Positions 221 through 25,986 of a stretch of 64,000 nt of DNA are shown one piece after another. This stretch comes from Thioclava sp. GXIMD2076 (GTDB taxonomy: Bacteria; Pseudomonadota; Alphaproteobacteria; Rhodobacterales; Rhodobacteraceae): the NCBI RefSeq assembly GCF_037949795.1, contig NZ_CP149934.1, positions 496,001-560,000 of the forward strand. Direction: 5' to 3'. A program made the position numbers and the translations under genes. The stretch's first letter is position 1; every line of letters starts with the position of its first letter. A model generated the notes under the pieces. The model worked only from the letters and a program-made list of their open reading frames with translations. It did not search any database and was not told where the DNA came from.

Positions 221-2805
221 AGCTGCGCGCAATCCGGATGAAAGATGTCCGCCGCTTCACCGCCCAGGTCGAGATCACCGGCATTGGTGACGGGCTCAAC
301 GTGCTGTCCGAACCCAATGAATATGGCAAATCCACCCTCTTTGATGCGCTGAAGGCGCTGTTTTTCGAGCGTCACAGCTCGAAAAAGAAAGAGGTGGGCG
401 CGCTCAGGCCCCATGCGGGCGGTGCCCCCGAGATCGAGGTCGAGATCGAAACCGCTCAGGGCCGGTTCACACTGGCGAAACGGTGGTTTTCCAAACCTAT
501 GGCCGAGGTGCGCCAGAACGGGCGGGTTATCGCACAATCGGATGCTGCCGAGGACTGGATCGCGCGGCTTCTGGGCGCGGGGGATGGCGGTCCGGCGGGT
601 TTGATCTGGGTCCGTCAGGGCATGACCGAGCTGGAAGGGCCGGTGAAGGCGGAGAACGAGGCGGCGCTCGCCTCGCGCCGCGATCTGATGTCGAGCGTGA
701 CAGAAGAGGTCGAGGCGATGACCGGCGGCCGGCGGATGGATATGGCGCTCAGGCGGGTGGACGGAGAACTGGCCCGCTATGTGACCGCCAGCGGCAAGCC
801 CAGGAAGAACGGCCCTCTGGGCGATGTGCTCGACGAGATCCAGCGGCTGGAGGCGGCGCAGGCCGAGCAGCAGGCCCGCGTGGAGGCCCTTCACCGCGAC
901 CTCGAGACGCGCAAGCGCCACCGAAAGACCCTGACCGATCTCGAGGATCCCGAGGAAAGAGGCGCCCGCGAGACGCGTCTGGCCCAGGCGGAGACCGCGC
1001 ATTCGGAGGCGCTCCGCCATGCCGAGCAGGTGGCCGCTGCCGCCCGCCAACTGCAATCGGACGGGCTGGCCGTGACCCGCGCCGAGGAGCGGCTGGGGCA
1101 GATGCGCAGCCTGCGCAAGGAAGCTACCGAGGCAAAGGCCGGGCTCGAGGCGGCGATGCCTCTGGCGGAGGCCGCGGCAGAGATCGAGGCCCGCACCCGC
1201 GCGCAGGCCAAGGAGCTGGCGGCCGCGCTTGAGGCCGCCCGCGAGGCCGAGCGCCAGCAGGCCGGGCGTCACGCCCGCGCCAGTCTGGCCGAGGCCGCGC
1301 GGCAGGGGGCCGCCCGTAAAGCCGAGATCGCTGCACGGATCGAACAGGCCGAAGCGGCCCGCACGCGCCACGAGGAAGCGCAGGCCGAAGCTGGCTTGCT
1401 CCTTACCTCCAAGGATCTGGAGACACTGCAAAGCCTCGAACAGGCATGGATCACCGAGGCGCGGCTCGCGGCGGCGGGAGCGGTGCAACTGAGCTTCGTC
1501 CCCTCGGGCGCGCAGGAGATCCGGCTCGACGGCACCCCGCTGACCGACACGGCCACACCGCTTTATGCACGGGCCGATCTGGACCTGCCGGGCCTCGGGC
1601 AGTTGACCATAGATCCGGGCGAACGGGCCAAAGCGGGGGCCGCGCAGGCCGCGCACACACGGTTGATACAGGCGTTCGAGCGCCATGGTCTGCCCGATAT
1701 GGCCGCCGCCCGCCGCAGCGCCCACCGGCGTGCCGAGCGGGAGGCCGCCGCCCGCGATGCGCAGGCGGAGCTGAAGATCAACGCTCCACAAGGGATCGAG
1801 GCGCTGCGCCGCGACCATGCCGCGATCCCCGCCCCGATTGAAGACCCCGACCTGCCCCCGCTGGCCGAGGTGAAGTCCCTGCTGGAGGCCGCGCAAGCCA
1901 AAGCCGCCGAACTGGCGCCGCAAGCGCGGCTCGCGGAGGAAAAAGCCACCGAGGCACGGCTCGAGACGGGGCGGCTGCGAGGCCTGTCTGACGCCGCCCG
2001 CGAGCGGCTGCAACGGGCCGAGGACAGGCTTGCGGAAAGCGCGCGGATGGGCGATGAGGACAGCCTTCAGGCCGAGCTGACCCATGCGGCCCAGGCCCTG
2101 AGCGCGAGCCGCGCCCTGCATGACGATCTGCGCCGGAAGGCGCCCGATCTGGCGGGGGCCGAGGCGGCGTTCAAACGTGCCAGAGCGGTCATCGAGACCG
2201 CGCAAAGGGAAGCCACAGAACTTTCGACCGAGCTTGCCCGCCTCGACGAGCGCATTATGGCGGCCAACGGTCAGGCCATCGAGGAAAAGCTGGCCGAGAC
2301 CCGCGATGCGCTCGAAGCGGCCCGCGCGACCGAAGCACGCCTGACCCATGAGGTCGCGGTGCTGCACCGGCTGCAGGCCGCGCTCGAGGCCGCGCGCAGC
2401 GCCGCCCGCGAGCAGTATTTCGCCCCTGTCGCCAAGGCGCTGCGCCCGCTTCTGGGGCTTCTGTGGCCGGAAGCCCAGCTGGAATGGGCCCAGGACAAGC
2501 TGTTGCCCGAAGCGCTGGTGCGCGCAGGCCAGTCCGAGCCCATCGACATTCTCTCGGGCGGCACGCAGGAGCAGATCGCGCTGATGGTGCGTCTGGCATT
2601 CGCACGACTGTTGCAGGAGGCGGGGCGCGGGGCACCGGTGATCCTCGATGATGCGCTGGTCTATACTGATGACGAGCGCATCGAGAAGATGTTCGATGCG
2701 CTCAATCGTCAGGCGGGCGATCTGCAGATCATCGTCCTCACCTGCCGCCAGCGTGCCTTCCGCGATCTGGGCGGCCAGCGCCTGCATCTGACCCCCGCCC
2801 CTTAA
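217..2805 (+). CDS. SbcC/YhaN-like coiled-coil AAA ATPase
   Basis: 862 residues with the split ATPase layout of SMC/Rad50/SbcC proteins: an N-terminal Walker A region (NEYGKSTL, about residues 34-41), roughly 600 residues of Ala/Glu/Arg-rich coiled coil, then a C-terminal ABC signature (LSGG, about 779) and Walker B (VILDDAL, about 808). Members of this family work with an SbcD-like nuclease in DNA end processing or repair. The start overlaps the preceding stop (ATGA), so the two genes are translationally coupled. At 862 residues it is nearer YhaN than E. coli SbcC. The exact DNA substrate cannot be read from sequence. Confidence 0.85.
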   Translation: MKLRAIRMKDVRRFTAQVEITGIGDGLNVLSEPNEYGKSTLFDALKALFFERHSSKKKEVGALRPHAGGAPEIEVEIETAQGRFTLAKRWFSKPMAEVRQNGRVIAQSDAAEDWIARLLGAGDGGPAGLIWVRQGMTELEGPVKAENEAALASRRDLMSSVTEEVEAMTGGRRMDMALRRVDGELARYVTASGKPRKNGPLGDVLDEIQRLEAAQAEQQARVEALHRDLETRKRHRKTLTDLEDPEERGARETRLAQAETAHSEALRHAEQVAAAARQLQSDGLAVTRAEERLGQMRSLRKEATEAKAGLEAAMPLAEAAAEIEARTRAQAKELAAALEAAREAERQQAGRHARASLAEAARQGAARKAEIAARIEQAEAARTRHEEAQAEAGLLLTSKDLETLQSLEQAWITEARLAAAGAVQLSFVPSGAQEIRLDGTPLTDTATPLYARADLDLPGLGQLTIDPGERAKAGAAQAAHTRLIQAFERHGLPDMAAARRSAHRRAEREAAARDAQAELKINAPQGIEALRRDHAAIPAPIEDPDLPPLAEVKSLLEAAQAKAAELAPQARLAEEKATEARLETGRLRGLSDAARERLQRAEDRLAESARMGDEDSLQAELTHAAQALSASRALHDDLRRKAPDLAGAEAAFKRARAVIETAQREATELSTELARLDERIMAANGQAIEEKLAETRDALEAARATEARLTHEVAVLHRLQAALEAARSAAREQYFAPVAKALRPLLGLLWPEAQLEWAQDKLLPEALVRAGQSEPIDILSGGTQEQIALMVRLAFARLLQEAGRGAPVILDDALVYTDDERIEKMFDALNRQAGDLQIIVLTCRQRAFRDLGGQRLHLTPAP

Positions 2806-4393: not shown

Positions 4394-5677
4394 ATGAGTT
4401 CTCTCGCCAGCAAAGCGCAAAGCCGGATCGACGAGGTGCTATCGAGCCCCACGATCGGCTGGAAGGCGCGTCTGATGTTTCTGGGCCCTGCGGTTATCGC
4501 CTCGGTCGCCTATATGGATCCGGGCAATTACGCGACCAATATCCAGGCGGGCGCGGGCTATGGCTACAAGCTTCTGTGGGTCGTGTTGCTGGCCAATCTG
4601 ATCGCGATGCTGTTTCAGGCGCTTTCGGCCCGTCTGGGAATTGTCACCGGCAAAAATCTGGCCGAGCTGTCGCGCGACAATTTTCCCCGTCCTGTCGTCT
4701 GGGTGATGTGGGTGGTTTCCGAGATCGCGGCAATGGCCACTGATCTGGCCGAATTCCTCGGCGGGGCGATCGGTCTGGCGCTTCTGTTCGACCTGCCGCT
4801 TTTCGTGGGGATGATCATCACCGCAATCATCACCTATGGTCTGTTACTGTTCGAGGGCCGTGGCTACCGCCCGATGGAGCTTATTATCGGGGCCTTTGTC
4901 GGGGTGATCGGGCTGTGCTATCTGGCCGAGGTGCTGATCGCACCCGTAGACTGGAGCGCCACGGCCCGCGGGCTGGTCACGCCCGATATGCCCGATACCG
5001 CAGCGCTGGCGATTGCGGTGGGGATTATCGGCGCGACCGTTATGCCACATGCGATCTATCTGCATTCCGGCCTGACCCAGAACCGGATGCCCACCCAGAA
5101 GATCGAACATAAACGACGCCTTGTGCGGTTTTCCAATGTCGAGGTCGTGCTGGCGCTGGCTGTGGCGGGCATGATCAATATGGCGATGGTGATGATGGCG
5201 GCGAGTGCCTTCCACGAGGGCCATTCGCAGGTGGCCGAGATCGAGACCGCCTATCACACGCTGACGCCCTTGCTGGGAGCGGCGGCGGCGGGGATGTTCC
5301 TGACCTCGCTGATCTGCTCGGGGATCTCCAGCTCGGTCGTGGGCACAATGGCAGGACAGATGATCATGCAGGGCTTCCTGCACTTCCGCGTGCCGATCTG
5401 GCTGCGCCGTCTGGTCACGATGGCGCCTGCCTTTGCCGTAGTGGCTTTGGGGGTGAACCCGACACAGGCGCTGATCTGGTCGCAGGTCGTGCTCTCGATC
5501 TCGCTGCCGGTGCCGATGATCGCGCTCGTCATCTTCGTGTCGCGACGCGATATCATGGGCGAATTCGCGACGTCCATGCTGACCCGCTGCCTTTCCATTC
5601 TGGGCGCGTTGCTGGTCCTGACGCTGAACTTCGTGCTGCTGGCGGAGTTCTTCGGGGTGACGATCCCCTTCCTCTGA
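4394..5677 (+). CDS. mntH: MntH, NRAMP-family Mn2+/H+ symporter
   Basis: 427 residues with about 11 membrane segments and both NRAMP signatures: DPGN in TM1 (about 42-45) and MPH in TM6 (about 217-219), the two helices that bind the metal. It imports Mn2+ (and possibly Fe2+) across the inner membrane. The ATG at 4394 is chosen over an upstream in-frame codon (4241) because an AAGG site lies seven bases before it and the upstream stretch contains the MntR-controlled promoter. The divergent mntR supports manganese as substrate. Confidence 0.95.
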   Translation: MSSLASKAQSRIDEVLSSPTIGWKARLMFLGPAVIASVAYMDPGNYATNIQAGAGYGYKLLWVVLLANLIAMLFQALSARLGIVTGKNLAELSRDNFPRPVVWVMWVVSEIAAMATDLAEFLGGAIGLALLFDLPLFVGMIITAIITYGLLLFEGRGYRPMELIIGAFVGVIGLCYLAEVLIAPVDWSATARGLVTPDMPDTAALAIAVGIIGATVMPHAIYLHSGLTQNRMPTQKIEHKRRLVRFSNVEVVLALAVAGMINMAMVMMAASAFHEGHSQVAEIETAYHTLTPLLGAAAAGMFLTSLICSGISSSVVGTMAGQMIMQGFLHFRVPIWLRRLVTMAPAFAVVALGVNPTQALIWSQVVLSISLPVPMIALVIFVSRRDIMGEFATSMLTRCLSILGALLVLTLNFVLLAEFFGVTIPFL

Positions 5678-5709
5678 GCATGAGACCGCGTCCCGATACC
5701 AGATCCATG

Positions 5710-5736
5710 GAAAGGCGTCCTTATCGGGCGCCTTTC
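5710..5736 (+). terminator. Hairpin terminator after mntH
   Basis: An 8-bp stem (GAAAGGCG / CGCCTTTC) closes an 11-base loop 33 bases after the mntH stop. The U-tract is weak (TGATTCG), so termination may be partial. Confidence 0.6.
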
Positions 5737-5771
5737 TGATTCGTAATAACGCTAATCCCTACCACTACCGC

Positions 5772-5800
5772 GGCGCGAAAATCCGTATAAAATTCGCGCC
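5772..5800. repeat. 8-bp-arm inverted repeat in the exopolysaccharide leader
   Basis: Perfect arms GGCGCGAA (5772-5779) and TTCGCGCC (5793-5800) flank 13 AT-rich bases, 175 bases upstream of the sugar transferase start. It could be an operator for the exopolysaccharide operon or an RNA hairpin in its leader. There is no U-tract. Confidence 0.45.
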
Positions 5801-5974
5801 TTGAGGGATACACCTTCCCAAACGGCAACTGCAGGCGGGGGCGGCAGCCTGCCAAATACACCCACAAGATGTAACTTAACGGCATTTACCGAACGTTATC
5901 GGTTATCGGCCAAATCTGCACTCATCCGCTCGACAGGGCGGAGACGTTACGAGTTCATTTTTTTCAGGCTCCAG

Positions 5975-6652
5975 ATGCAGCATTCGGTTTCCCTATCCAA
6001 GGCGCTTGGCGATGACGCGATCGTGCAGATCTCCAAGCGCCGTATCTATCACCGCCGGATGAAACCGGTTTTCGACCTGTGTCTGGCGCTCGCTCTTGCC
6101 CCCGTCCTCATGCCCGTCATCGCCGTGTTCTGGGCGCTGGCCCGTCTGGACGGGGGCTCCGGTTTCTATGGCCATACCCGTATCGGGAAGGATGGCCGCC
6201 CCTTCCGCTGCTGGAAGATCCGCACGATGGTGCCCGATGCCGAGCGCAGACTGGCCCTGTTGCTGGCCACCGATGCCGATGCCGCCATCGAGTGGGAACT
6301 GTCGCGCAAGTTGAAAAACGACCCGCGCGTGACACGGCTGGGCCGGTTCCTGCGCAAGACATCTCTCGACGAGTTGCCCCAGATCTGGAACATCCTGCGC
6401 GGCGAGATGAGCTTTGTGGGCGCGCGCCCCGTCACAGAGGACGAACTGACCCTCTACCGCCATCGCCGTCAGGCCTATCTCAGCCAGCGTCCCGGTGTCA
6501 CCGGTTTCTGGCAGGTGCTGGGCCGCTCCGATCTGCCCTATGCGCTGCGCGTCGAGATGGACATGGCCTATCTGCAGAAATGCTCCCTTTTCATGGATAT
6601 CGGCCTGATCCTTCTGACCGTCGCAGTGGTGCTGCGCGGAACCGGCGAGTAA
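5975..6652 (+). CDS. Initiating undecaprenyl-phosphate sugar transferase (exopolysaccharide)
   Basis: A 225-residue bacterial sugar transferase of the ExoY/PssA/WbaP C-terminal type: one membrane segment (about 33-54), then KIRTM (81-85), the Asp-Glu pair of TSLDELPQ (about 129-135) and GEMSFVGARP. These enzymes load the first sugar phosphate onto undecaprenyl phosphate at the inner membrane. I start at ATG 5975, six bases after an AGG; an in-frame codon at 5801 would add a low-complexity tail. It is the first gene of a + strand run of tightly spaced exopolysaccharide genes. Confidence 0.88.
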   Translation: MQHSVSLSKALGDDAIVQISKRRIYHRRMKPVFDLCLALALAPVLMPVIAVFWALARLDGGSGFYGHTRIGKDGRPFRCWKIRTMVPDAERRLALLLATDADAAIEWELSRKLKNDPRVTRLGRFLRKTSLDELPQIWNILRGEMSFVGARPVTEDELTLYRHRRQAYLSQRPGVTGFWQVLGRSDLPYALRVEMDMAYLQKCSLFMDIGLILLTVAVVLRGTGE

Positions 6653-6688
6653 CGCCCCTCCCCAGCCCCTTGCGCCAAGAGACATATT

Positions 6689-7996
6689 ATGAACGCCTTC
6701 TCTCCCAAACTCGCCAAAACCGCCAAGACCCTGCGCCATGTGCATGCGCGCGGGCTCAGGGTGGTGCTGATCACGGGCCATCTGCCGCTCCAGAAGCGTA
6801 AGGCCTCGATGCAGTGGTTCTGCGAGGATGTGCAGAAACGCGGCGGTCATGTGACCATGGTCAGCGTGGGCTATAGCTGGATCTCGAAATGGCGCAAGGA
6901 CCGCCGCCTGATGCAGGTGGATGGGCCGGTGCCCGAGGGCTACCGCCGGATCACTCCCAGTTTCGACGCCTATTTCGGCTATGCCCCGATCCACCCGTTC
7001 AGCCTGCGCAACCGCAAGCTCGACACGCTGGCCGCGCCGTTGATGACGCTATTCCGGCACTTTTGGGCCCGACGGCTGCCCGCGCTGCTGGCGCAGGCCG
7101 ATCTGGTCATCATCGAAAGCGGCCCTCCGGTGCTGCTGGCCGATATCGCCAAATCGGCCGCGCCCCATGCCAAGTTCATCTACCGCATCAGCGATGATGT
7201 GAAGGCGCTCGGCCTGCCGCAGATCGTGCGCCGCGCCGAAATGGCACAGGCGCATCTGTTCGACCGCATCAGTATTGCGGGGCCGCAGATCGCGGCGCGT
7301 TTCGACGAGCATCCCCAAACCGAGATCGACCCGATCGGCGTGCCACGCGCCGTGCTCGAAGCGCCGATGATCAATCCGTTTCTGGGCAAATTCGGCAAAC
7401 AGGCGGTCTGTGCGGGCACGACCCAGATCGATCTGGCGACGGCGCGGATCATGGCCGAGGCCCGCCCCGACTGGCGCTTCCATATTCTGGGACGCATCGC
7501 GGATGTGCCCGCCGATCTGCCGGCGAACCTGATCCTGCATGGCGAGGTGCCTTACGAGGTCTCCGCCGCCTATATCCGCTTTGCCGATATCGGGTTGGCG
7601 CTCTATCAGGACAAGGCAGGCGCGGAATATCAGGCCCATCACAGCAACCGTATGCTGCTTTACCGGTATTTCGGGCTACCGATCCTCGGGCCGCATCGTG
7701 TCTTTGGCGGCATCGCGCTGCATGGCGCGGGCTATGATGCCCATGATCCCGACAGCATCCGCCTGGCGACCGAACGCGTGGCTGGGCTGCGCCGTGTGGC
7801 GGGTGATCCCGAGATCGAGGACTGGTCCCGCCTGACCGACCGGCTGCTCTCGGTGCTTCCGGGGATCCACCGTCAGGTGGAGAACGGGCGGATGGCGGAT
7901 CAACGGAGCGGAATGCCTGCCGCCAATGGCGCGGAGGATCCGCTGGCGCAGCTCTCTTGCATGCACGATCCCTCTCTGCACGGCCCCCACCCATGA
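6689..7996 (+). CDS. GumK-like glucuronosyltransferase (GT-B)
   Basis: 435 residues without a clear signal. Several stretches read like Xanthomonas GumK (family GT70): VIIESG, AKFIYRISDD and LLYRYFGLPILGP, plus an IHPFSLRNRKL segment. GumK transfers glucuronate from UDP-GlcA to a lipid-linked oligosaccharide on the cytoplasmic face of the membrane. The gene lies 36 bases after the initiating transferase and overlaps the next gene by ATGA. An acidic sugar in the repeat unit is an inference. The last 40 residues look unstructured. Confidence 0.7.
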   Translation: MNAFSPKLAKTAKTLRHVHARGLRVVLITGHLPLQKRKASMQWFCEDVQKRGGHVTMVSVGYSWISKWRKDRRLMQVDGPVPEGYRRITPSFDAYFGYAPIHPFSLRNRKLDTLAAPLMTLFRHFWARRLPALLAQADLVIIESGPPVLLADIAKSAAPHAKFIYRISDDVKALGLPQIVRRAEMAQAHLFDRISIAGPQIAARFDEHPQTEIDPIGVPRAVLEAPMINPFLGKFGKQAVCAGTTQIDLATARIMAEARPDWRFHILGRIADVPADLPANLILHGEVPYEVSAAYIRFADIGLALYQDKAGAEYQAHHSNRMLLYRYFGLPILGPHRVFGGIALHGAGYDAHDPDSIRLATERVAGLRRVAGDPEIEDWSRLTDRLLSVLPGIHRQVENGRMADQRSGMPAANGAEDPLAQLSCMHDPSLHGPHP

Positions 7997-17646: not shown

Positions 17647-19686
17647 TTACATCGCCCGCATCAGGCGCATCCCGTCCAGCACCGCCGCATGGGTGTTGCG
17701 CGCCGAGACCGCATCCCCGATGCGGAACAGCTTGAACCTTCCATCCGCATTGGGGGCAAGCGTCTGCGGGCGGCCCGCGATCAATGCCTCGTAATCGACC
17801 TGCCCCAGATTGGAGGACTGCCCCTTGAGATCGAAATAGAGATCATCGAGCGGCAGCGTGCCGGAATTCACCACCAGCTGATCGACCAGACGTTCCTCCT
17901 CCTCCGGCCCGTAATCCGAACCCAGCGTGACCTTGATCCGGTTGCCCTCGCGCGTGGCCGCCTTCAGCCGCCATGTCAGCGTGGTCCTGAAATCGCGCCC
18001 CTGCAGCGCGCGGATATAGGGGGTGAGGTTCATCGCCATGACCTCGGGCGCCAAGGCCCGATCCGCCGAGACCAGTTCGACCTTGCCACCAGCCGCGGTA
18101 ATCCTCTCGGCCGCCATCAGCCCTGCATGATCGCCCGCCTCATCGAAGATCAGCACCTCGGAGGCCGGCGTCACATCCCCCGAGAGGATATCCCATGCGC
18201 TGATCGCCAGATCCGCGCCGGGCTGGCCCAGATCGGTGCGCGGCAGACCGCCTGTCGCCACAACGACCACCTGCGGCTCCTGCGCCAGCACATCCTCGCC
18301 TTCGGCGAAACAGTTGAATTTGAAGCTGACCCCCAGCGTATCGCATTCGCTCATCCGCCATTCGGTGACCGCGAGCATCTCGCGGCGGCGTGGGTCCTGT
18401 GCGGTCAGCCGGATCTGGCCGCCCGCCTCGTTGGCGGCTTCCAGAACGGTGACCTTATGGCCACGCAGCGCCGCGACCCGTGCGGCCTCAAGCCCCGCAG
18501 GCCCTGCCCCCACAACCGTCACCCGCAAGGGTGCCTCGGCAGGATCGATCCGGTGCGGCAGCTCGATCTCGCGGCCCGAGGAGGGATTGTGCATACATAG
18601 CGCCCCGCCCGCCTGATAGATGCGATCGATACAGAAATTCGCGCCGACACAGGGCCGGATACGCTCTTCCTGACCCGCCACCAACTTGGCCACCAGATGC
18701 GGATCGGCGATATGGGCGCGGGTCATGCCGACCATATCCAGCTTGCCCGAGGCAATGGCATGGCGCGCGGTCGACAGATCGGGGATGCGCGCGGCATGCA
18801 GCACCGGCAGCCGGACCTGCGCCTTCACCTCGCCCGCCACATCCAGATGCGGGGCCGAGCGCGACCCTTGGATCGGGATCACATCGGTGAGCCCCGCATC
18901 GGTGTCGATATGACCGCGGATGACGTTGAAGAAATCGATCAGCCCGCTTTCGGTCAGGCGCTTGGCAATCTCGCGGCCCTCGCCCGCATTGATCCCCTGC
19001 GGCAGGTCCTCATCGACCACACCGCGCACCCCCACGATGAATTCGGGCCCCACGCGGTCACGGATCGCCTGCAGCACCTCCATCGAGAATTTCATGCGGC
19101 TTTCAAGGCTCTGCGCGCCATAGGGGCCGTCCAGCTCGTTCCATTGCGGCGACCAGAACTGGTCCATCAGATGGCCGTAAGCCTCCAGCTCGATCCCGTC
19201 GAGCCCTGCGTGTTTCATCCGCTCGGCGGCATCCGCATAATCGGTGATGATGCGGGTGATGTCCCAGTCCTCGATCAGCTTGGGCATCGCGCGGTGGGCA
19301 GGCTCGCGGACGGTGCCGGGGGCGACGGTGGGCAGCCAGTCGCCACGGTCCCAGCGGGTGCGGCGGCCCAGATGGGTCAGCTGGATCATCACCGCGCAGC
19401 CCTCGTCATGACATTCCTGCGCAAGCTTGCCCATATGGCCCACGATCTCGTCCTTATAGGCGAGGATATTGTTGAAAGCGGGCGGGCTGTCGGCGGCGAC
19501 GCTGGCCGAACCCGCGGTCATGGTCATCGCGATCCCCGCGCGGGCGCGTTCGAGGTGATAGGCGCGGTAGCGCTCGGTCGGCATCCCGTTCTCGGCATAG
19601 GCAGGCTCGTGCGAACTGATGAAGATCCGGTTTTTCAGGGTCAGATGTTTGAGCGTGAAAGGCTGCAATAAAGGGTCGTCGCGCAT
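17647..19686 (-). CDS. DgcA/StcD-type N-methyl amino acid demethylase (OYE-family flavoprotein)
   Basis: 679 residues: Old Yellow Enzyme TIM barrel (1-340), an Fe-S segment with Cys346, Cys352 and Cys364 (CVGANFC...LCMHN) and a C-terminal FAD/NAD domain (VVGAGPAGLEAARV, about 389-402). Architecture matches 2,4-dienoyl-CoA reductase relatives such as dimethylglycine demethylase DgcA and N-methylproline demethylase StcD; the CVGA...C spacing, with Ala where classical reductases have a second Cys, is as I recall typical of that subgroup. ATG 19686 has a GGAGGA site. It converges with the GbdR-like regulator. Substrate is inferred. Confidence 0.72.
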   Translation of the reverse strand: MRDDPLLQPFTLKHLTLKNRIFISSHEPAYAENGMPTERYRAYHLERARAGIAMTMTAGSASVAADSPPAFNNILAYKDEIVGHMGKLAQECHDEGCAVMIQLTHLGRRTRWDRGDWLPTVAPGTVREPAHRAMPKLIEDWDITRIITDYADAAERMKHAGLDGIELEAYGHLMDQFWSPQWNELDGPYGAQSLESRMKFSMEVLQAIRDRVGPEFIVGVRGVVDEDLPQGINAGEGREIAKRLTESGLIDFFNVIRGHIDTDAGLTDVIPIQGSRSAPHLDVAGEVKAQVRLPVLHAARIPDLSTARHAIASGKLDMVGMTRAHIADPHLVAKLVAGQEERIRPCVGANFCIDRIYQAGGALCMHNPSSGREIELPHRIDPAEAPLRVTVVGAGPAGLEAARVAALRGHKVTVLEAANEAGGQIRLTAQDPRRREMLAVTEWRMSECDTLGVSFKFNCFAEGEDVLAQEPQVVVVATGGLPRTDLGQPGADLAISAWDILSGDVTPASEVLIFDEAGDHAGLMAAERITAAGGKVELVSADRALAPEVMAMNLTPYIRALQGRDFRTTLTWRLKAATREGNRIKVTLGSDYGPEEEERLVDQLVVNSGTLPLDDLYFDLKGQSSNLGQVDYEALIAGRPQTLAPNADGRFKLFRIGDAVSARNTHAAVLDGMRLMRAM

Positions 19687-19925
19687 GGGAATCCTCCGGT
19701 GGCCGCAACCTATGCGGGCTATCCCAAGGCAAATCCGCCCCGCAGCCCCTGTCAAATCCCTGAGCGACCTGACTTGTTTATAAGCGACACCCATTTGCAA
19801 ACGGGAGCAAAGTCCATTTATCGCGCGCGCGAAGTGCCCGCCTTTCGGGCAAGTCGCGTAACAGATTGACTTTCCGCGAATCCGCGCCAACCTCTGGCGC
19901 ATCTGAAACGGCCTACGGAGCCAAC

Positions 19926-23615: not shown

Positions 23616-24830
23616 TCAGGCCGCTTCAGGCTGACGCCAGCGCGGGAAGGGATCGGGCAGATCCGCCCAGCTGTGCGGCGGGATCTCTTCGGGATCGATC
23701 AGGGCGCTATCGAGTGCGCGGGTGATCCCCTCCTCGTCCAGCCCCGCCCCGATAAACACCAGCTCCTGACGCCGGTCGCCATAGGGTTCCTGCCAGTGCT
23801 GCTCCAGATAGCTGCGTGCCGACGGATGGTCCGGCCAGCGCGCCTGCGGCACCGAGGCCCACCAGATCCCCATCGGCTTCACCGCCGACAGCGCCCCTGC
23901 CAGCGAGAACTCCGCCAGCCAGTCGGGACGGGTCGCCAGCCAGAAATGGCCCTTGGCGCGGATCACCCCGCGCAGCGGCCCGTTCAGCACATCGTGAATA
24001 CGCTGCGGATGGAAAGGCAGGCGCGCGCGATAGACGAAGGACGACACGCCATATTCCTCGGTTTCCGGCACATGATCGGCAAAACCATAAAGCTCCTTGG
24101 CCCAGAGCGGATGCTCATGCGCGGTGTCGAAATCGAAAAGGCCGGTATCGAGAATCCGCCCGGGCGCGACCTTGGAATGGTCGGTCTCGATGATCTGTGC
24201 ATCGGGATTGAGCGATGTGACGATCTTGCGGGCCGCATCGACCTTGGAAGGCCCTGCATCGCTGACCTTGTTGAGCACCACGACATCGGCAAATTCGATC
24301 TGGTCAACAAGCAGATCGACGATCCGGCGCTCATCGCCCTCCCCCATGCTCTCGCCGCGATCGGCAATGAAATCATGGCTCGAATAATCATTGAGCAGGT
24401 TTGCGGTATCGACCACCGTCACCATCGTATCGAGTCGCGCGACATCCGAGAGGCTCTGCCCGTCCTCGTCGCGGAACTCGAAGGTCGCGGCCACCGGAAG
24501 CGGCTCGGCAATGCCCGTGCCCTCGATGAGCAGATAATCGAAGCGCTTCTCGGCCGCCAGACGGCGCACCTCGGCCAGAAGATCGTCGCGCAGGGTGCAG
24601 CAGATGCAGCCATTGGTCATCTCGACCAGTTTTTCCTCGGCATGGCTCAGCTCGGCCCCGCCCGAACGGACGAGATCGGCATCGATATTCACCTCGGACA
24701 TATCATTGACGATCACCGCAACGCGGCGGCCCTCGCGATTATTGAGGATGGAATTCAGCAAGGTGGTTTTTCCGGCCCCCAGAAATCCCGAGAGCACGGT
24801 GACCGGCAAACGGCTGTCTTCGACTGACAT
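23616..24830 (-). CDS. COG0523 GTP-dependent metallochaperone (ZigA-like)
   Basis: 404 residues: Walker [13 protein letters not shown] (13-24), the diagnostic CICC metal motif (75-78), [19 protein letters not shown], and a C-terminal CobW_C domain. G3E GTPases of this group deliver metals to enzymes; the ZigA branch is induced under zinc starvation. A Zur-like palindrome lies 34-48 bases upstream of the start, so zinc is the likely metal. ATG 24830 follows AAGGA by ten bases. Confidence 0.85.
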
Positions 24831-24863
24831 GATGGGTCATTCCTTTTATGCCATATCCAGTTA

Positions 24864-24878
24864 TGTTATGCTATAACA
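24864..24878 (-). promoter_or_regulatory. Zur-like operator upstream of the COG0523 gene
   Basis: A perfect dyad TGTTAT-GCT-ATAACA sits 34-48 bases before the ATG. Proteobacterial Zur boxes are palindromes built on GTTATA/TATAAC, so this matches well. It would repress the gene when zinc is plentiful. Confidence 0.65.
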
Positions 24879-24954
24879 ATCACACTCCAACCAAGGACGC
24901 AAGCCCCCTCTTGTCACCCAAATGTAACCGCGATAGCCTCGGCGCGATCGACAG

Positions 24955-25071
24955 AGTGGCAACTAGGGTTCCGGGCGTATCGCGCTGCCAGCGACCGAGC
25001 GTTGCAGAGACCACGGGCTTCCTTCCGTGGCTGCACCCGAGGGGGAAAATCCCAGAGGAGGAGACGTCGAG
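24955..25071 (+). ncRNA. ykkC-family riboswitch-like leader
   Basis: Conserved blocks in ykkC order: CTAGGGTTCCGG (24963-24974), GACCGAGCG (24993-25001), a long P3 hairpin closed by TGCAG/CTGCA and CCACGG/CCGTGG (25003-25035), then GAGGGGGAAAATCCC and AGAGGAGGA (about 25040-25063). As I recall the family, GACCGAG and the terminal GGAGGA resemble the ppGpp/PRPP/ADP-sensing subtype more than the guanidine-I form (CCGAGAG, ACACGG). The leader ends about 43 bases before the EamA gene ATG, so translational control is possible. Ligand not assigned. Confidence 0.68.
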
Positions 25072-25113
25072 ATCAACCAACGTCCCGTTCCGGGGCGCTC
25101 AAAGGGGGTCTCT

Positions 25114-25986
25114 ATGACTGTATCTTCCGTCCTGATGGTGCTTTGCGCCGCCATCCTCCATGCCAGCTGGAACCTGATTGCCAAACGAAGCGCCAAAGTC
25201 GGGCCGGTTTTCGTGTTTGTCTACTCGGGCTTTGCCTGCCTTTTCTATGCGCCATGGGTGTTCTGGGTCATGGCCGATGGCACCTTCACATGGAGCGCCT
25301 TGGGGCTTGCAGTGATGGTCGCAAGCGGCGTTATCCATCTGGGCTATAATCTCTGCCTGCAACAGGGCTATGCGAAGGCCGATCTCTCGGTCGTCTATCC
25401 GGTGGCGCGCGGCACAGGCCCGCTCCTGTCGGTGCTCGGGGCGTTCTTGCTGCTAGGGGAGCAACCTACGGCAGGAGGGGTCGCGGGAATGCTCTGTGTG
25501 GTCGCGGGGATCTTCCTGATCGCCACCCAAGGCCGTCTCGCGGTCTTCACGAGACCCGGCGGCAAGACCGGTCTCCTCTGGGGGCTGGCGACCGGAAGTC
25601 TGATCGCCTGTTATACCGTGACCGATGCCTCTGCCGTGAAGCTATTGGGCATTGCGCCCGTGATGCTCGACTGGGTGTGTAACCTGATGCGGGTGGGGCT
25701 TCTGGCACCGGCCGTGCTGCGCCACCCAGACCATATGCGGGCGAGGATGCAGGGGCATTGGGGGCGCGCCGCCCTGATCGGGCTATTTTCTCCGCTGGCC
25801 TATATTCTGGTGCTGACCGCCATCTCGCAGGGCGCGCCGCTCAGCCATGTGGCGCCGTTGCGCGAAAGCTCGATGATGGTGGGCGCACTTCTGGGCATGG
25901 TGCTCCTGAAGGAGCCGGTGGGCGCGGGGCGGCTTGCGGGCTGCGCTATTCTGGTGGCGGGTGTGATCTTGCTTTCGGGTCTCTAG
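25114..25986 (+). CDS. EamA/DMT-superfamily transporter
   Basis: 290 residues with ten predicted membrane helices in two EamA repeats (each ending with a LLLGEQ- or LLKEPV-type motif at about 109 and 267). Family members export metabolites or amino acids at the inner membrane. ATG 25114 follows a run of five G. It is preceded by the ykkC-like leader, so expression is probably ligand-controlled; the cargo may be related to the riboswitch ligand, which is inference. Confidence 0.82.
   Translation: MTVSSVLMVLCAAILHASWNLIAKRSAKVGPVFVFVYSGFACLFYAPWVFWVMADGTFTWSALGLAVMVASGVIHLGYNLCLQQGYAKADLSVVYPVARGTGPLLSVLGAFLLLGEQPTAGGVAGMLCVVAGIFLIATQGRLAVFTRPGGKTGLLWGLATGSLIACYTVTDASAVKLLGIAPVMLDWVCNLMRVGLLAPAVLRHPDHMRARMQGHWGRAALIGLFSPLAYILVLTAISQGAPLSHVAPLRESSMMVGALLGMVLLKEPVGAGRLAGCAILVAGVILLSGL

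Follow-up and report, generated by a model that had tools for sequence, protein, structure and literature searches.

The leader that precedes an EamA-family transporter gene in Thioclava sp. GXIMD2076 is, judged by comparison of homologous leaders, a real RNA element of the ykkC family, and it probably belongs to the subtype 2 riboswitches of that family, subtype 2d being the likeliest assignment; as such it would turn on translation of the transporter as its ligand accumulates. The element lies in a window of 64,000 nucleotides (the whole stretch of DNA analysed, part of a 582-kb contig in a 4.1-Mb genome), to whose numbering all bare coordinates refer (Table 1). A first-pass annotation had described a ykkC-like leader at 24955..25113 and had suggested that it may be a ligand variant in front of an EamA gene. 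The position holds, as does the variant in front of EamA, with two amendments: the true extent is longer, running from the start of the P0 helix at 24948 to the end of an alternative stem at 25118, and the class is not new, being in print as ykkC subtype 2d (PMC7266159, PMC5912903, each in part).

Table 1. Features of the leader and its gene (window coordinates)
Feature	Position	Strand	Basis or remark
Sigma-70-like promoter, TTGTCA-17-TAGCCT	24911..24939	+	Sequence; ends 8 nt before P0
P0 5' strand, UCGAC	24948..24952	+	Pairs with 25066-25070
AGU just 5' of P1	24955..24957	+	Placed like A5-G6-U7 of the PRPP aptamer; invariant in group A; hand placement from PMC6031431 (in part)
P1 (24959-24963 with 25001-25005), enclosing P1a and P2 (24974-24977 with 24983-24986)	24959..25005	+	RF00442 alignment
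Subtype marker, G-C dinucleotide	24999..25000	+	G-A in guanidine-I, G48-C49 in the PRPP aptamer; marker from PMC6031431 (in part)
P3 hairpin (25011-25016 with 25025-25030)	25011..25030	+	Two-sided changes in 3 of 6 pairs
Pocket segment CACCCGA, P3a (GGG/CCC) and AG	25034..25055	+	Equivalents of C75 A76 C77 C78, 95 and G96
Alternative (OFF) strand CGUCGAGAUC, holding the whole P0 3' strand	25065..25074	+	RNAalifold consensus
P0 3' strand, GUCGA	25066..25070	+	Pairs with UCGAC at 24948-24952
3' side of the OFF stem: Shine-Dalgarno run AAAGGGGG, GGUCUC (25107-25112), AUGAC	25101..25118	+	
EamA/DMT transporter, 290 aa	25114..25986	+	Pfam EamA; best NCBIfam model TIGR03340 phn_DUF6, 137.1 bits, cut-off 288.15

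The sequence blocks on which the ykkC assignment had been built are all in place: CTAGGGTTCCGG at 24963-24974, GACCGAGCG at 24993-25001, the P3 hairpin at 25011-25030 and the AGGG..AAAA.CCC block at 25040-25053. At gathering thresholds no Rfam family reaches its cut-off anywhere in the window. A relaxed search of 24840-25200 finds RF00442 (Guanidine-I) at 24952-25060 with 35.7 bits (E 5.7e-5 for the 361 bases searched), below the gathering score of 63 bits; the other match there, a flavivirus element with E 7.7, is at chance level. Minimum-free-energy folding of 24955..25113 gives no signal, with 147 of 200 shuffled sequences folding equally well or better, and because folding energy alone is silent the support for the leader is comparative. 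The relaxed RF00442 match and the pairing conserved over nine leaders together bear out membership in the family, and the same leader is found before orthologous EamA genes, with compensatory changes in P2 and P3. The low RF00442 score is not a lineage effect, because the same genome has a separate, standard guanidine-I element of 79.3 bits (L061, G000:C2:399918-400037). That element precedes a gene which, named by eye, resembles one for a substrate-binding protein.

One position of the aptamer is said to separate guanidine from non-guanidine ykkC RNAs (PMC6031431, in part), subtype 2 having a pyrimidine where guanidine-I has A, a rule stated for 2a and 2b in the portion of that paper available; the leader has C at 25000. 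Across 52 distinct places pooled from four genome scans (L055 and L072 being left out as repeats of L039 and L032), the marker is C in 19, every one of which precedes EamA, and A in 28, none of which does, with five places unclassifiable. Only the marker column enters these counts, the second motif column (CAC-GG/CC/CT) being unreliable in that P3 can match it. Many of the 28 marker-A places appear, by eye from the translations, to precede a periplasmic substrate-binding-type protein. The earlier impression that the leader is nearer to the nucleotide-sensing subtypes than to guanidine-I gains support from the marker C, from one extra nucleotide after CAC, from an equivalent of G96 and from the P0 helix (landmarks mapped by hand from part of PMC6031431).

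The EamA-linked leaders fall into a group A, to which that of the window belongs, and a group B. When the ON structure (aptamer plus P0) is laid over nine group A leaders, 97.3% of cells are paired, as against 28-47% in slid controls, and seven pairs are changed on both sides, a number reached in 1 of 500 shuffles (shuffled mean 3.7). All four P2 pairs change on both sides in these nine leaders, and P1 is invariant. With 14 leaders and P2 omitted, three P3 pairs are changed on both sides; that count is reached in 109 of 500 shuffles, and the cell number or the covariation score in none. Alignment A6 leaves out L109 and L111, although both have the leader. All 14 group A leaders have CACCC and CCCAG unchanged, and the pocket segment reads CACCC or CACCU, not CACGG, in all 14 group A and all 12 group B rows. 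Two sub-kinds can be told apart in group B, one having CACCC and CCAGAGGGG, the other CACCUUAA and AGGGGGG (L046 and L068-L071 compared with L031, L035, L036, L038 and L065-L067), so that the pocket segment varies even within one gene context. A search of solved structures returned no sequence match at E <= 1.

Within group A, P0 is paired in 100% of cells over 14 leaders, yet four of its five pairs are without variation. RNAalifold applied to the 12 group B leaders finds P0 unprompted, with arms unrelated to those of group A, and in its outer part an exchange of C-G for U-A is visible when the arms are read by eye. Duplexes of cognate P0 arms come to -4.5 to -6.3 kcal/mol in group A and -10.8 to -15.4 in group B, as against means of -2.8 and -1.2 kcal/mol for arms crossed between the groups (best single pairs -6.7 and -5.3). 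The differently armed P0 of group B is stronger support for the helix than the pairing within group A. Upstream of P0, a promoter-like pair of the form TTGNNN-N16/19-TANNNT ends 6-8 nt before the helix in 12 of 13 leaders of group A and in 8 of 12 of group B, while 500 mononucleotide shuffles give it on average in 0.04 (of 13) and 0.01 (of 12); given this spacing, the RNA 5' end is expected at or near the first P0 base. A stricter consensus scan, requiring 9 of 12 matches, lists no promoter in the window, whose own pair has 8.

How such an element might act on its gene is suggested by a second structure. Unprompted, RNAalifold pairs CGUCGAGAUC of group A with GGUCUC and GACG of the start region in place of P0, and because CGUCGAGAUC includes all five P0 bases, P0 and this OFF stem are mutually exclusive. 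Over 14 leaders 97.1% of OFF-stem cells are paired, as against 29-60% in slid controls (the window's outermost pair is a C-U mismatch). A single pair shows a two-sided change, in two rows, and the same pair is open in 3 of the 14; of 500 shuffles 213 reach one such pair and 51 the paired percentage. As aligned, the OFF stem shows conservation more than covariation. In single-sequence folds its probability exceeds 0.5 in 11 of 14 leaders, the others being that of the window (0.09), L063 (0.12) and L004 (0.33), and the freely folded window RNA leaves the start codon unpaired. The probability of P0 in such folds is 0.00 in all 14, its formation costing 3.0-6.9 kcal/mol. Of the 15 bases spanning the Shine-Dalgarno run and the AUG, 6-8 are still paired in each leader even when P0 is forced, compared with 7-11 unforced. 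The 3' region of group B forms a hairpin in the RNAalifold prediction.

Taken together, these predictions suggest a translational ON switch as the likeliest mechanism, one which the single-sequence folds back only in part. Ligand binding would stabilise P0, the ligand together with tertiary contacts paying the energy cost of the helix; formation of P0 would in turn take the OFF-stem strand and free the ribosome site, such that a build-up of ligand would turn on translation of the EamA exporter.

Comparison with the described ykkC subtypes places the leader more closely. Guanidine-I (RF00442) shares with it the P1, P2, P3 and P3a layout and the core sequence, but in the leader three guanidine-contacting bases are changed, one nucleotide is inserted and P0 is added. 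Membership in guanidine-I was rejected on the score of 35.7 bits against 63, the marker C, the changed pocket guanines and the separate 79.3-bit element in the genome. Of the polyanion-binding subtypes, conserved extensions are described for 2a-2c (PMC5912903, in part) and P0 for 2b (PMC6031431, in part), and conserved 5' and 3' extensions are present in the leader also. The ppGpp-binding 2a RNAs lack a G at 96, whereas the leader conserves one at 25055 (hand mapping). The PRPP riboswitch (2b) shares with the leader, by hand mapping from the available portion of PMC6031431, the marker C, the G96 equivalent, C75-A76-C77 with the C that follows, and a P0 at the RNA ends; it differs in lineage, in its 3' pyrophosphate-contacting segment (A101/A103/G104/G105) and in gene context, with purine genes where the leader has EamA. 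It acts, moreover, on transcription termination (PMC5912903, in part), whereas the predicted switch of the leader is translational. Subtype 2c, which senses (d)NDPs, has a NUDIX or HAD hydrolase downstream; EamA follows 19 of 19 marker-C places.

Subtype 2d, on the other hand, controls EamA (originally phn_DUF6) and TauE transporter genes, and its ligand is given as undetermined in a 2020 review (PMC7266159, in part). The leader shares with 2d the downstream EamA/phn_DUF6 family, the ykkC core and the subtype 2 marker, and it is filed there because the gene and the marker agree. It may stand apart in two respects: in the text available, a 2018 paper ascribes additional conserved ends to 2a, 2b and 2c alone (PMC5912903), whereas the leader has a clear P0, and 2d includes TauE-linked members, whereas every marker-C place here precedes EamA. 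Compared by published description and gene context, then, the leader is most likely a member of this orphan subtype. A literature search over titles and the starts of abstracts, with subscription papers mostly outside its scope, named no 2d ligand among the matches listed. In the 2d literature, so far as its text was available, we found no earlier statement of P0 in EamA-linked RNAs, of groups A and B, of a start-codon switch or of the RpiR-linked sister clade described below.

The leader before orthologous EamA genes occurs in Thioclava, Roseibium, Paracoccus, Agrobacterium and genomes of other alphaproteobacterial families. A first model (A2), built from three leaders (those of the window, a congener and Roseibium) with P0 deliberately unpaired, found in 295 genomes of the family two further copies (131.2 and 124.7 bits) along with four lower-scoring leaders that belong to a second kind; in 385 genomes of the class it found the window's leader as the sole EamA-linked one, with one place unclassifiable. 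With a second model, EamA-linked leaders appeared in 13 of 390 genomes of the order sample and in 4 of 398 of the phylum sample, none of these outside the class. The samples overlap and the scan filters are strict, so that all four counts (order, phylum, class and family) are lower bounds.

Against plasmids, the leader DNA of the window matched 15 records (Agrobacterium 9, Thioclava 4, Paracoccus 2), one Thioclava plasmid having a 180-base leader stretch 100% identical to that of the window. The model detected a leader in 7 of the 12 plasmid transporter neighbourhoods first scanned and none in seven more (L113-L119) together with L027 (0 of 8). The leader and EamA are seen as a unit on different plasmids, among them pTiCFBP5877 (L102), the 16-kb pAvF25f (L107) and Paracoccus megaplasmids (L101/L111), some of them typed conjugative; the two may travel as one mobile unit. 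A contig catalogued as viral likewise bears leader and EamA (L120, ~1753-2780, minus strand). Because L030 (G066) has what looks like an identical leader stretch, this is probably host DNA at the edge of a provirus.

For the transporters tested, phn_DUF6 (TIGR03340) is the best NCBIfam model, with scores under the model's cut-off. In a tree of these proteins groups A and B share one branch with a third clade (100/99), which is sister to group B (99/96). The program flags a meeting of long branches, and the tree took six of the 21 congeneric matches L005-L025 and left out L109, L110, L111 and L116. Three members inside group A (L027, L103 and L112) are leaderless. The third clade is distinguished by its regulator: an RpiR-family gene lies directly upstream in 7 of 7 tree members and in the near-copy L116, and in none of the 32 other loci scanned. 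These regulators are 63-83% identical to that of Klebsiella, and the two tested both have an HTH_6 and an SIS domain, a fold that typically binds phosphosugars. The RpiR/SIS-linked transporters (Klebsiella, Burkholderia, Variovorax, Stutzerimonas, Acetobacter and Streptomyces plasmids) are of the same family as that of the window and share a supported branch with groups A and B, but differ in that the RpiR-family gene precedes the transporter and no leader is found, the model scan being negative in all eight loci. In the Acetobacter locus (L105, 3455-5998) the RpiR gene upstream of EamA is interrupted by ~1.7 kb of other sequence. A divergent ketopantoate-reductase-like gene stands beside the third-clade locus in seven of eight cases, with a fragment in the eighth, and also at L118, outside the clade.

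The gene neighbourhood is less informative. EamA alone is widely shared among the 21 contexts compared (that of the window and 20 more), and for that reason the neighbouring genes do not point to a ligand. The EamA frame was called in 16 of the 21, and other shared clusters in 3-5 loci, mostly of group B, by an ORF caller crude enough to miss some EamA frames and to call spurious antisense ones. In the intergenic region of the leader, a palindrome-like GTTATGTTATGCTATAAC is seen at 24860-24879 and, by eye, in the congener L004 also; it lies upstream of a divergent ZigA-type GTPase gene (23616-24830; NF038288, 599.2 bits, cut-off 600), and we take the palindrome to resemble a zinc-repressor operator. 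Flavin-oxidoreductase genes alike by eye occur at 17647-19902, ~5 kb upstream of the leader, and directly upstream of a group B leader (L091:7552-9585).

What the ligand might be is best approached through the pocket. Guanidine-I holds its ligand by the AG-bulge G33-A34, G63, the G64 backbone and G81 (PMC11661666, in part); hand mapping onto that partial pocket list gives G-C, C, C, and A or G at the equivalent positions of the leader. The phosphate and ribose contacts of the PRPP aptamer are A5, G6, G48, C49, C77, C78, G96 and the 101-105 segment (PMC6031431, in part). Mapped by hand from the primers in the available part of that paper, the leader retains the equivalents of G48, C49, C75-A76-C77, the C at 78 and G96, with A5-G6 in group A and only G6 in group B. 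It departs from the PRPP aptamer in an A at 95 and a different 101-105 segment, a mapping that was made from primers and text, not from an aptamer alignment. As in the PRPP aptamer, four nucleotides precede P3a in the leader where guanidine-I has three, a difference seen as an insertion in the RF00442 alignment also.

The retention of positions that bind phosphate in the PRPP aptamer, together with the SIS-domain regulator paired with the sister transporters, hints that the ligand may carry phosphate; the regulator is a clue independent of the pocket, though an indirect one. P0, the PRPP-like pocket and the RpiR/SIS sister clade speak more for a phosphorylated ligand than for the guanidine-like compound suggested in print, and we infer that EamA exports this ligand or one of its relatives. 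As a tentative proposal, less probable than its alternatives taken together, the EamA-linked ykkC RNAs may comprise two or more aptamer architectures (those of groups A and B, which differ in junction length and whose P0 helices are unrelated). These RNAs would sense phosphorylated metabolites, perhaps two of them, and would functionally replace an RpiR/SIS phosphosugar regulator before one transporter family.

The reading that competes most directly, somewhat unlikely in our estimation, is that of the 2018 paper, which finds the 2d consensus closest to guanidine-I and suggests a small, charged, toxic, guanidine-like ligand (PMC5912903, in part). A stand-alone exporter with no conserved neighbour would be as expected for detoxification, and the charged residues invariant over 35 rows of the transporter family include the acidic D171, E251 and E267 along with H16, K24, H75, R99, R250 and R273, a set that does not decide between a cation and an anion. 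Such a ligand sits poorly, however, with a P0 and a PRPP-like pocket of the kind described for polyanion-binding subtypes, and with the RpiR/SIS regulator of the sister clade. That the aptamer senses PRPP itself, as in 2b, we regard as improbable, for although the equivalents of G48, C49, C75-C78, G96 and A5-G6 are kept (hand mapping) along with P0, the pyrophosphate-contacting 3' segment (A101, A103, G104, G105) is changed, in different ways in groups A and B, and the gene is an exporter rather than one of purine synthesis, with no obvious reason for PRPP to be exported.

Still less probable is a divergent guanidine-I riboswitch that continues to respond to guanidine, the EamA protein then being a DMT-superfamily exporter of that compound. 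RF00442 is the sole meaningful Rfam match, and EamA and guanidine transporters do belong to one superfamily (PMC5912903, in part); against this stand the sub-threshold score (35.7 against 63 bits), the pocket changes A34 to C, G63 to C and G81 to A or G (mapped by hand on part of PMC11661666), the standard 79.3-bit element elsewhere in the genome, and the 28 marker-A elements, none of which precedes EamA. Very improbable, too, is an intermediate of phosphonate breakdown by C-P lyase (a ribosyl phosphonate), which would explain the name of phn_DUF6, the best NCBIfam model for the transporters tested, and the phnJ gene within 6 kb of the leader in G941, but phnJ occurs in 6 of 20 leader-bearing genomes compared with 13 of 20 leaderless ones (hand-picked from the no-match rows of the strict-filter order scan), and it is absent from the genome of the window. 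As a general rule a C-P lyase link is thus not supported by the phnJ counts. In G941 itself, PhnM- and PhnL-like genes (by eye) together with phnJ face the EamA of a group A locus (L083, ~5570-7440 and beyond). Least credible of all is a conserved protein-binding or thermosensor leader, compatible with the lack of unusual stability from folding alone but at odds with ykkC core bases, common to the guanidine-I family, that are conserved to the point of invariance.

In the 2020 review, 2d alone among the ykkC subtypes had no ligand assigned (PMC7266159, in part), and P0, a possible start-codon switch and a protein-regulated sister clade narrow the search to phosphorylated metabolites (including the effector of RpiR) versus guanidine-like cations. 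They also point to constructs and reporters long enough to take in P0. Should the phosphorylated-ligand proposal prove true, with these RNAs standing in for an RpiR/SIS regulator, the EamA transporter would be an overflow exporter of the phosphosugar type.
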